Assembly (NCBI GenBank): GCA_902786975.1 | Contig: CADAES010000001.1 | Coordinates: 1-64,000 of the forward strand | Length of the DNA stretch: 64,000 nt | Source of the DNA: an uncultured Ruminococcus sp. | GTDB taxonomy: Bacteria; Bacillota; Clostridia; Oscillospirales; Ruminococcaceae | Direction of reading: 5' to 3' | Part shown: one piece after another, positions 9,362 through 40,027 of the stretch | Numbering within the stretch: position 1 is the first letter of the stretch | Layout of the letters: each line of letters starts with the position of its first letter | Notes under the pieces: generated by a model | Told to the model about the DNA's origin: nothing | What the model saw: only the letters and a program-made list of their open reading frames with translations | Databases searched by the model: none | Translations under genes and position numbers: made by a program

Positions 9362-9396
9362 TAGAAAGCGCCCGTCGGGGGAGATATTTGCAAAAA

Positions 9397-9457
9397 CCTA
9401 TTGACAAGGTAGGAATTAAGTGATATACTGTATGTATTACCCTACCAAAACGGTAGG
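9397..9457 (+). promoter_or_regulatory. nifS promoter with two CCTA-N9-TAGG operator sites
   Basis: TTGACA (9401-9406) and TATACT (9424-9429), 17-base spacer. Palindromes CCTA-N9-TAGG at 9397-9413 (over the -35) and 9441-9457 (CCTACCAAAACGGTAGG, downstream of the -10), centres 44 bases apart. Near-copy of the promoter at 2073-2135. Confidence 0.8.
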
Positions 9458-9476
9458 AAAGAAAAGAGGAACAGTA

Positions 9477-37896: not shown

Positions 37897-38787
37897 TTAC
37901 TTTATTGCGTCGAGACTCGACTGCTTTCCGCCGTAAAGTCCCAGAGGCTCAACGTGGATAGAAGCTACCGAAACGATGTGAGTCTTGTTCTGTTCGTTGA
38001 AATCGTCGAGATACGGCTTGTGCTGGAAATAGTTTGCGTCGATCTCTCCGCTTTCAACAACATTGTTCGGCTGAACGTAATCGGTGAACTCGGTGATCTT
38101 GAGGGTGATATCCTTCTTGGCGAGTATATCCTTTACCTTTGCGAGTATCTCTGCGTGAGGCGTAGGTGAAGCGGCAACGGAAATGCTCTTGCCCGAAAGG
38201 GAAGCGTAGTCTATGCTCTCGTCGTAGCCGTCGGTCGGCTGTTCAACTGTTGAGATGACAGAACCGTCGTATTTTTCCTTGATGAAATCGGCGACATCTT
38301 TGCTTTCAAGTGCAGCTTTGAGCGCCTTTACGGTGTCCTTGTTCTCGTTTCCTTCCTTGACTGCGAGAATGTTTCCGTAAGCCGAGGACGAGCCTTCAAT
38401 GGCGAGCGAATCCTTGACCGGGTTGAGCTTTGCGTCGATAGCGTAGTTTGAGTTTATTACAGCGTAGTCAACGTCCTTCAGAACATTTGGGAGCTGTGCG
38501 GCTTCGACCTCCTTGAATTCGATATTGTGCGGGTTGTCCTTGATGTCAAGCGTAGTTGCCGTGATGCCTGCGCCGTCCTTGAGCTTTATGTAGCCCTTGT
38601 CCTGCAAAAGCAGCAAAGCCCTCGCCTCGTTGGTCGTGTCGTTGGGGATAGCGATAGTTATGCTGCTTTTTGTGTCCGAGCCTTTTTCGCCCGAGGCAGA
38701 TGAAGAATCTCCGCATGCGGTGAACGAGAATACACCTGCAAGGATAGCTGTTGAGAGTACGAATGATATTATTTTATTCTTTTTCAT
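37897..38787 (-). CDS. metQ: Methionine-binding lipoprotein MetQ (NlpA family)
   Basis: The 296-residue protein has a lipoprotein signal (FSFTACGDSSS) and the NlpA/MetQ body, including LNPVKDSLAIEG, VKDILAKKDITLKI and the ending NYFQHKPYLDDFNEQNK with HVEPLGLYGGK, which are conserved ligand-site segments. It captures methionine outside the membrane for MetNI. The start follows AAAGAGGTAATCTATC. Upstream lie two short frames and a terminator that probably regulate the operon; about 100 bases separate metQ from metN with no terminator seen. Confidence 0.93.
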   Translation of the reverse strand: MKKNKIISFVLSTAILAGVFSFTACGDSSSASGEKGSDTKSSITIAIPNDTTNEARALLLLQDKGYIKLKDGAGITATTLDIKDNPHNIEFKEVEAAQLPNVLKDVDYAVINSNYAIDAKLNPVKDSLAIEGSSSAYGNILAVKEGNENKDTVKALKAALESKDVADFIKEKYDGSVISTVEQPTDGYDESIDYASLSGKSISVAASPTPHAEILAKVKDILAKKDITLKITEFTDYVQPNNVVESGEIDANYFQHKPYLDDFNEQNKTHIVSVASIHVEPLGLYGGKQSSLDAIK

Positions 38788-38866
38788 GATAGATTACCTC
38801 TTTCTTTCAATTCAAAATTTCAATGTTTCCAATGTTGTCCGGTGAATGTGAGTGTGTGCGGTGAGA

Positions 38867-38923
38867 TCACATTCGCCCGTTGCGGAAATTCTGTCTTAAA
38901 AGAAAAACGAAATAGTAGTTCAT
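38867..38923 (-). CDS. Second micro-ORF between terminator and metQ, 18 codons
   Basis: ATG 38923 follows GGAGGAAAGTAAA, one of the best ribosome binding sites of the window, placed just after the T-run of the leader terminator. It encodes MNYYFVFLLRQNFRNGRM and stops 79 bases before metQ. It is rich in Tyr/Phe, with only the first and last codon for Met. It may be a translated spacer that keeps ribosomes on read-through mRNA, a remnant, or a true small peptide. No conservation evidence available here. Confidence 0.45.
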   Translation of the reverse strand: MNYYFVFLLRQNFRNGRM

Positions 38924-38947
38924 TTTACTTTCCTCCAAAAACAAAAA

Positions 38948-38975
38948 TAACGGGATACCCGACGGTATCCCGTTA
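38948..38975 (-). terminator. Leader terminator (attenuator candidate) upstream of metQNI
   Basis: A perfect 12-base stem (AACGGGATACC paired with GGTATCCCGTT plus a flanking A-T pair) with a 4-base loop, then TATTTTTGTTTTT on the minus strand. It stands between the Met/Cys-rich leader frame and metQ, with no other promoter visible in between, so metQNI transcription must pass through it. Confidence 0.85.
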
Positions 38976-39005
38976 TGAACAAGCTAAGTATGTCAGCCCA
39001 TTGGC

Positions 39006-39119
39006 TCAGCACATATCAAAGCGTCGGGAACGCATCGGAAAAACAGCACAGCAAAGCATGCACATAGTTCTGCACATGCACATAGACATATTCATCATTG
39101 CTGTAAATGTCTTTTTCAT
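39006..39119 (-). CDS. Met/Cys-rich leader peptide, 37 residues
   Basis: ATG 39119 follows AAAGGAACGTCATT. The 37-residue product contains 10 Met and 6 Cys (for example MMNMSMCMCRTMCMLCC at residues 8-24, ending FDMC). That is far beyond chance and matches the substrate of the transporter operon that follows. A strong terminator begins 30 bases after the stop codon. This is the arrangement of a translation-sensing attenuator, with ribosome stalling at Met or Cys codons when these are scarce. A real metal- or redox-active peptide is the alternative. Its promoter carries the CCTA-N9-TAGG-like operator shared with sulphur genes. Confidence 0.7.
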   Translation of the reverse strand: MKKTFTAMMNMSMCMCRTMCMLCCAVFPMRSRRFDMC

Positions 39120-39144
39120 AATGACGTTCCTTTCGTTTGATAGA

Positions 39145-39209
39145 CCCACCAATTCGGTAGGTGTATTTTGTGTTGTTGCTATAATAGCACACATTTTTTC
39201 GTTTGTCAA
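39145..39209 (-). promoter_or_regulatory. Promoter and sulphur-regulon-type operator of the leader-metQNI unit
   Basis: Minus-strand TTGACA (39204-39209) and TATTAT (39181-39186), 17-base spacer. Downstream at 39145-39161 lies CCCACCAATTCGGTAGG (+ strand), differing from the nifS site CCTACCAAAACGGTAGG at only three positions. Only one copy is seen here, in the position of the downstream site at the other two promoters. Confidence 0.75.
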
Positions 39210-39247
39210 CCCTTTTTTCAAAAAAAATTTTTTCACTGCCCTGCGCA

Positions 39248-40027
39248 TCATTCCTGCGGCGGCTGAGCGCTGTCGGTGCAGGAATGCTTTTTCAGCGCTC
39301 TTGCGGTGATAAATGCCGTTACGGGTATGACTATGACACAGCCTGCTGCACTGAACAGTATCCGTATCATCTCCGCAGCGAAATTCTTGGCGTTGACTAT
39401 CTCTCCGAACGAGTAGCCGCACTTGCAGAACCATATCAGCAGAGTCATAAAGTCGCCGAGAAATGCGAACATAAGCGTATTTGCCGTGGTGCACAGGATA
39501 TCCCTGCCGATATTCATTCCCGATGCGAAAAGTTCTTTTACGGAAAGCTCACGGTTGTTGCGGTGTACCTCGTAAAGTGCAGAGGATATAGCTATCGACG
39601 AATCGACCGTTGCGCCGATAAGGCTTATCAGTATCAGCGATACTGCGATATCTGTGAAATCTGTCTTGACATCGTAGGAGAACATATTTATCTCCTCGTA
39701 GGATTCCCAGCCGAAGCCCGCTATCCTTGAAACGTATGTCACCGAGAAGATGAGCACCGACAGTATCACAAGCACCACAGCTATTGATTTCAGGCTCGAT
39801 ACGGTCTTTATGTTCTCGCCGTTCACGAAAAACAGCATCACACAGCTCACCGCAAAGCACCCGACGAGCGAGCATACGATGGCGTTGAGCCCCAGAGCGA
39901 TAAGATAGAATACAACTATCAGCACTCCGAAGTTCATTCCCAGCGAGATAAACAGTTTAAGCCCCCGCTGTACGTCAACATAAAGCATCAACGCAAGCAG
40001 GATAACTGCAAGTATTATTACCGTCAT
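39248..40027 (-). CDS. YibE/F family membrane protein (second of a pair)
   Basis: The 259-residue protein has about seven membrane helices and the family's conserved stretch DFTDIAVSLILISLIGATVDSS followed by a regular helix-loop with MNIGRDILCTTANTLMFAF. It overlaps the preceding YibE/F gene by 4 bases and shares its central motif, so the pair probably forms a heteromeric membrane complex. Function of YibE/F proteins is unknown. No hairpin follows, so transcription may run on toward the metQNI leader promoter. Confidence 0.85.
   Translation of the reverse strand: MTVIILAVILLALMLYVDVQRGLKLFISLGMNFGVLIVVFYLIALGLNAIVCSLVGCFAVSCVMLFFVNGENIKTVSSLKSIAVVLVILSVLIFSVTYVSRIAGFGWESYEEINMFSYDVKTDFTDIAVSLILISLIGATVDSSIAISSALYEVHRNNRELSVKELFASGMNIGRDILCTTANTLMFAFLGDFMTLLIWFCKCGYSFGEIVNAKNFAAEMIRILFSAAGCVIVIPVTAFITARALKKHSCTDSAQPPQE

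Follow-up and report, generated by a model that had tools for sequence, protein, structure and literature searches.

A likely Met/Cys leader-peptide attenuator in front of metQNI in an uncultured Ruminococcus sp., with relatives across Clostridia

Leader-peptide transcription attenuators of the trp, his, ilv and leu type are known from Proteobacteria, Actinobacteria and some Firmicutes; those of the Firmicutes reportedly include ilv in Staphylococcus and Listeria. The Met genes of Firmicutes are known for their control by S-box and T-box RNA sensors. The S-box and other SAM riboswitches are a known control of these genes, and the T-box reads amino acid supply via tRNA charging. Mycobacterial poly-cysteine frames were, reportedly by Canestrari in 2020, described as leaderless.

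For bacilli, the available portion of one study (PMC2965389) describes his leader peptides that replace T-boxes at hisS. In a survey of actinobacterial leaders (PMC1262725), again as far as its available portion goes, the S-box is mentioned for Met and no RNA structure was seen for actinobacterial Met operons. The same portion describes cys poly-cysteine attenuators, which are short Cys-codon frames before sulphur genes, with the Cys run near the stop and without a conserved terminator.

The window analysed here, meaning the whole 64,000-nt stretch from an uncultured Ruminococcus sp., carries on its minus strand a promoter, a palindrome, a Shine-Dalgarno (SD) match, a Met/Cys-rich leader frame (ORF1), a terminator, a second leader frame (ORF2) and the genes metQ, metN and metI, in that order:

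39209-39181, minus strand: leader promoter, TTGACA, 17 nt, TATTAT, agreeing with the consensus at 11 of 12 positions
39162-39144, minus strand: palindrome ACCTACCGAATTGGTGGGT (ACCTACC-GAATT-GGTGGGT), one mismatch to ACCTACC-5-GGTAGGT
39130-39125, minus strand: SD of ORF1, GGAACG, a Shine-Dalgarno match
39119-39006, minus strand: ORF1, MKKTFTAMMNMSMCMCRTMCMLCCAVFPMRSRRFDMC, Met/Cys-rich leader frame of 37 codons plus stop, with 10 Met and 6 Cys
38976-38947, minus strand: intrinsic terminator of 13 pairs with a 4-base loop, U-rich tract at 38946-38937
38936-38932, minus strand: SD of ORF2, GGAGG, following the U-rich tail of the terminator
38923-38867, minus strand: ORF2, MNYYFVFLLRQNFRNGRM, ending CGA ATG TGA, present in 4/4 genus loci
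38787-37897, minus strand: metQ, substrate-binding lipoprotein, best NCBIfam name MetQ
37797-36787, minus strand: metN, ATPase, best NCBIfam name MetN
36794-36090, minus strand: metI, permease, best NCBIfam name MetI

Every one of the MetQ, MetN and MetI matches is under its curated NCBIfam cut-off, and plasmid records gave no match. An earlier note on this DNA had proposed a frame with its own promoter and ribosome binding site, then a terminator, then metQNI. All of these lie in that order where it had placed them, on the minus strand, and its count of 37 codons with 10 Met and 6 Cys is correct. The terminator it described is also present, with a stem of 13 pairs and not the 12 it gave. ORF2 falls inside the coordinates of that note (38867..39161) and went unmentioned there. 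A separate metQNI promoter past the terminator had been named as a finding that would speak against attenuation. Judged by sequence, the single minus-strand promoter-like match past the terminator in the interval scanned (38600-39400) is at 38815-38786 (9/12); because it runs up to the start codon of metQ, it is an unlikely promoter for that gene. In the literature searched, outside which most subscription papers lie, we found no Met or Met/Cys leader-peptide attenuator, in agreement with the note's remark that none was known to it for Met transporters, no report of an ORF2-type leader frame, and none of five ORF1/ORF2 peptide strings.

Our preferred reading, to which we assign a probability of roughly 0.85, is that the leader frame and terminator form a ribosome-mediated transcription attenuator, predicted to respond to a shortage of charged Met-tRNA or Cys-tRNA by raising metQNI transcription. 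It would be a classical attenuator with a new predicted specificity, Met plus Cys. As in the trp, his, ilv and leu systems, there is a frame rich in codons for the amino acids presumably sensed, an intrinsic terminator, and predicted antiterminator and putative protector pairings. Unlike in those systems, Met and Cys are predicted to be sensed, a Met transporter or metY follows, the SD region of ORF1 itself would be the protector strand, and a second leader frame often comes after the first. ORF1 bears an SD, is predicted to be translatable and lies downstream of the promoter; the intrinsic terminator lies between it and the first gene; and its cluster of codons for the amino acids linked to the operon has a core kept across genera. 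The actinobacterial poly-cysteine attenuators resemble it as short Cys-codon frames before sulphur genes, but here Met and Cys are mainly in the first two thirds of the frame, and both an SD and an intrinsic terminator are present. We rejected an assignment to that class on the position of the cluster, codons 8-24 of 37, and on the presence of the terminator.

The Met+Cys density of ORF1 is by far the highest among 447 short ATG frames in the window, nested starts counted. Read from an inner start, ORF1 has 14 Met+Cys in 30 residues, against 5 in 25 for the runner-up, and the binomial probability of its content is about 6e-11 if 5% Met+Cys is assumed. The leader RNA folds with a z of -4.9, a stability equalled by 0/100 shuffles. 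Three ORF1/ORF2 peptides had no match in NCBIfam.

Among 29 genomes of the genus, six gave a MetQ match at 1e-20, and four of these, the home genome of the window included, were near full length with 83-100% identity. The same four carry ORF1, which was convincing in no other of the 29; the three relatives are Ruminococcus sp. UBA3767, uncultured Clostridiales bacterium RUG060 and Ruminococcus sp. FC2018. A search with the ORF1 peptide likewise gave real matches only in these three, hits with E above 0.002 not being taken as relatives. Promoter, ORF1, terminator and ORF2 are retained in all four loci, a comparable -35/-10 pair being recognisable by eye in the three relatives. The earlier note had held that loss of the frame among close relatives would count against it; ORF1 is present in 4/4 genus genomes with this metQ. 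Ten core Met/Cys positions are identical in all four members, as had been expected, and the pattern is kept despite amino acid drift. The synonymous-only drift that had also been expected was not seen: over codons 1-24, genus pairs differ by 0-2 synonymous and 2-5 amino acid changes. The terminal Met-Cys pair before the ORF1 stop occurs in the home genome alone among the four.

To follow the leader further, MetQ searches were run over 396 family and 394 order genomes, and the upstream regions of the matches listed were read or scanned. Among these matches, ORF1 precedes 20 of the 30 metQ loci with at least 63% identity over a near-full-length match, a cut set after the loci were seen; one of the 20 (L082) is weak. 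These 20 loci, again among the matches listed, represent 15 genus labels and 7 family labels. ORF1 is absent from the other ten (L040, L066, L067, L069, L071, L072, L074, L075, L076 and L080) and was recognised in 0/23 metQ loci of lower similarity among the matches listed; in a 24th such locus, L057, the contig has no sequence upstream. It also stands in front of metY in five loci (L107, L108, L120, L123 and L124), two of which, L123 and L124, belong to other orders of the class, and this brings the ORF1 loci to 25. A profile of 20 peptides was positive in 5/207 order genomes and 4/148 class genomes, home counted in both, which argues that the leader is widespread, not common. One class-profile match, L125 in genome G829, was dropped because there is no leader there.

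Examples of the peptide from other loci begin MKKITAMMMEMCMCGRMCM..., MTGTVVMNMREMCMDSMCM... and MKKLYTITNTMMMEMCMWTCGMCM.... In an alignment of 20 peptides (from 22 loci), the only columns kept at 90% or more are M1 and four of the Met/Cys core. One could suppose that the ORF1 product is a small, Met/Cys-rich protein with a function of its own, such as metal binding, and that the hairpin merely ends its own transcript. The good amino acid conservation of the first 24 codons within the genus speaks for this, but across genera little besides the Met/Cys pattern survives and the length varies from 25 to 44 residues. ORF1 also keeps its place with respect to the terminator and to the metQ or metY gene; in 22/22 loci measured the terminator starts 13-55 nt past the ORF1 stop. 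The terminator finder matched 10/220 shuffled stretches, 1/220 with as good a score.

The end of ORF1 is likewise kept, as RNA. Its consensus, by eye, is about UUUUCCGAUGNGUUCUCC, and its partner is either the SD region of ORF1 or the terminator 5' arm plus loop. SD region and ORF1 end pair as GGAACGU/GCGUUCC at home, GGAGAUC/GAUCUCC in L038, GGAGAACAC/GUGUUCUCC in L070, GGAGAGCA/UGCUCUCC in L073 and GAAAGCGC/GCGCUUUC in L081. The home genus and L081 read this stretch as CCG|ATG, while L065, L107 and others read it as TCC|GAT, and such a difference in reading frame between relatives argues for conservation at the RNA level. A small protein as the conserved product is, on this evidence, highly improbable.

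The attenuator reading requires three segments of the leader RNA, which are as follows at the home locus:

39119..39141, minus strand: segment 1, SD region of ORF1 (GGAACGT core at 39130-39124), putative protector strand, duplex with segment 2
39025..39039, minus strand: segment 2, TCCGATGCGTTCCCG, near the ORF1 end, putative antiterminator 5' strand, pairing with segment 1 or 3
38958..38972, minus strand: segment 3, CGGGATACCGTCGGG, putative antiterminator 3' strand, duplex with segment 2

Segment 3 is composed of the terminator 5' arm, the loop and the first bases of the 3' arm. At home, the 1:2 duplex has an energy of -17.9 kcal/mol (z -4.0 vs shuffles). The 2:3 duplex, UCCGAUGCGUUCCCG with CGGGAUACCGUCGGG, reaches -19.7 kcal/mol over 14 pairs, and at this locus alone it is unexceptional against shuffles (z -0.97, p 0.185). 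The earlier note had seen by eye an alternative pairing of only five bases; these five belong to the 2:3 helix, which has about 14 pairs. The parts, their conservation and their capacity to pair are direct observations.

Folding tests covered 22 of the 25 ORF1 loci, with L120, L123 and L124 in none of them, and the duplex tests used 18 of the 22, from which the near copies L020, L021, L083 and L108 were excluded. For the 1:2 duplex, the mean with a locus's own partner was -18.0 vs -14.4 (sd 0.7) with loci mixed (0/5000 permutations); for the 2:3 duplex it was -20.8 vs -18.4 (sd 0.7; 2/5000). Dinucleotide shuffling of segment 2 over the same 18 loci, as a control for composition, gave combined z values of -9.5 for 1:2 and -5.5 for 2:3, with individual loci often unremarkable, home among them for 2:3. 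The comparison of sequences supports the protector and antiterminator pairings over the locus set, not in each locus. In a count over helix 1:2, made on 9 distinct rows that represent 11 of the 25 loci and were chosen for gap-free alignment, which favours the structure, the helix was 91.4% paired. The expectation of co-varying pairs likewise failed, in that a count by column covers this chosen subset alone. There the covariation score is reached by 0/500 shuffles, and the pairs changed on both sides (3/9) are equalled by 113/500.

The effect of a stalled ribosome was modelled by placing it at each codon and folding the RNA as far as the start of the terminator 3' arm. Over 21 loci, the mean number of antiterminator pairs was 14.3 with the ribosome in the cluster, 3.7 once it stood five or more codons past the cluster and 9.1 with no ribosome placed, and shuffled leaders gave 9.3 in the cluster and 7.1 beyond. 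L085, which has no codons far enough past the cluster, was omitted from these numbers; entered as 0 in the 22-locus set, it changes them to 14.4, 3.6 and 8.9, with 9.3 and 6.8 for the shuffles. At least 10 antiterminator pairs formed inside the cluster in 21/22 loci, vs 9/22 for the shuffled means, and at most 6 remained beyond it in 19/21. The contrast between in-cluster and after-cluster positions is larger than in shuffles (Wilcoxon P about 1e-6, kinship uncorrected), and because the loci are related, such P values are too small. In the model, stalling at the cluster lets an antiterminator form that would exclude the terminator. In 9 of the 11 loci read out, minimum-energy folds of the whole leader with the cluster masked keep the terminator wherever the ribosome stalls; in L065 and L068 some stall positions lose it. 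Since equilibrium folding prefers the terminator, read-through would have to be kinetic, with the antiterminator forming first.

From these data we infer the stalling, the read-through and the amino acids sensed as follows. When ORF1 is completed, or when no ribosome is present, segment 2 would be covered or paired with segment 1, so that the terminator forms and transcription stops. A ribosome stalled at codons 8-24, in the Met/Cys cluster, would hold segments 1 and 2 apart and keep segment 2, which lies a short way in front, unpaired. The free segment 2 could then pair with segment 3 before the terminator 3' arm exists, and polymerase would read through into ORF2 and metQNI. The architecture of Met plus Cys attenuation that the earlier note had suggested is supported by comparison, over 15 genus labels and with the terminator in 22/22 loci measured.

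Only 11 of the 22 loci hold the antiterminator to 6 pairs or fewer when ribosome-free, although the 1:2 protector pairing is itself strong. The 11 that fail to suppress it, together with the 5' palindrome, would fit a terminator under some other control, such as a riboswitch not yet described, a protein that binds the RNA or a tRNA contact of the T-box kind, with ORF1 translation incidental. But in most loci the last codons of the Met/Cys cluster lie roughly at the point from which a ribosome would start to cover segment 2, and Rfam searches of the region 38700-39300 with E up to 10 returned only matches attributable to chance, all in eukaryotic and viral families. At gathering level no Rfam family was reported in the whole window. 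Neither RF00230, with its tRNA-binding antiterminator, nor any SAM riboswitch model matches this leader, so that the absence of an S-box or Met T-box, claimed earlier, holds for the window at gathering level and for the leader even when weak matches (E up to 10) are admitted. We regard such other control as quite unlikely.

T-box leaders do occur at the same place before metQ, in a less similar clade. RF00230 was found in 6/6 metQ loci of genus label g81 (L042-L047), which belong to the 23 less similar loci in which ORF1 was not recognised; L043 scores above gathering, and L042 and L044-L047 score 80-92 bits against a cut-off of 93. If the attenuator reading is true, a trp-type attenuator that reads Met and Cys occupies the operon position where this other clade uses a T-box, and it extends over several families of Clostridia. 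Nature would then offer an example in which one sensing principle has replaced another at a single operon position.

ORF2 is an LxRxNFRxGRM peptide, mostly of 18-24 residues, with a near-invariant CGA-AUG in its frame. Its pattern AAYWWNMGNWWYRRNCGAAYGTG was found in 59/388 order genomes and in none of a reversed control, and it lies upstream of metY or metQ in 34/34 loci read (33 distinct). Thirty of these (L088-L117) have metY downstream in 29 cases and metQ in one (L110, the same place as L070), and the four further loci, which came from the ORF1 search and include one duplicate, have metY. It brings to light what would be a widespread second leader peptide before metY. At home and in many ORF1 loci ORF2 sits between the terminator and metQ; it occurs without ORF1 in L067, L069, L071 and L072. 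Of 48 ORF2 loci, the 44 fitting the pattern have their start codon at a single distance in about 84% of cases, and their Arg codons vary; CGAAYGUG is fixed there because the pattern was built that way. Twenty metQ loci with an ORF2-like frame recognised by eye are free of this bias, and among them CGAAUG is present in 19/20 and CGAAUGUG in 16/20, with L022, L068, L079 and L083 as the exceptions; the ORF2 of L123, before metY, likewise departs from the CGAAUG-type end. The codon after the AUG is a stop, Cys or Trp.

On average, the ORF2 coding region tends to pair with the metY SD, at -12.8 for own partners vs -10.4 (0/2000 permutations, composition uncorrected), with a combined z of -6.6 (31/33 loci, one a duplicate). 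Pairing with the metQ SD is weak (combined z -2.9, 14/16 loci, 6/3000 permutations), and that of the SD of ORF2 itself with downstream sequence is unconvincing (combined z -1.9). ORF2 would likely serve as a second tier, probably a translational one. In a two-tier switch, the ORF1 attenuator would be joined by the nascent peptide of ORF2 (here 18 codons), which would stall at its terminal Met/Cys codons or sense a Met metabolite and so free the metQ or metY SD. We put this forward tentatively, at somewhat less than even odds; if it is true, ORF2 alone would control metY widely and would count as a new class among the leader peptides of bacteria. A hairpin, GAATGTG..CACATTC at 38844-38874 on the minus strand, overlaps the ORF2 end at home; a similar one is visible by eye in G016 (L005), and it is not general elsewhere.

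The palindrome just past the transcription start may be an operator or a 5' hairpin. It is perfect in genome G016 and altered in G008 and G006. Its presence at this promoter and at two more in the window is compatible with a regulator acting on ACCTA/TAGGT as the main, DNA-level control, with the leader as a minor modulator, but this would leave the Met/Cys cluster, the terminator and the alternative pairings unexplained. We consider it very unlikely as the main control, and both layers could act jointly.

Within the window, ACCTA..TAGGT palindromes lie at 2072-2136, 9396-9458 and 39144-39162, with 5 matches vs 1.0 expected. The promoters that bear them belong to a gene with weak similarity to GCS2 (glutamate-cysteine ligase), a class-V aminotransferase (cysteine-desulfurase-like) gene and metQNI. 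The motif is a candidate sulphur-regulon operator, which might be bound by a regulator of the Rrf2 type.
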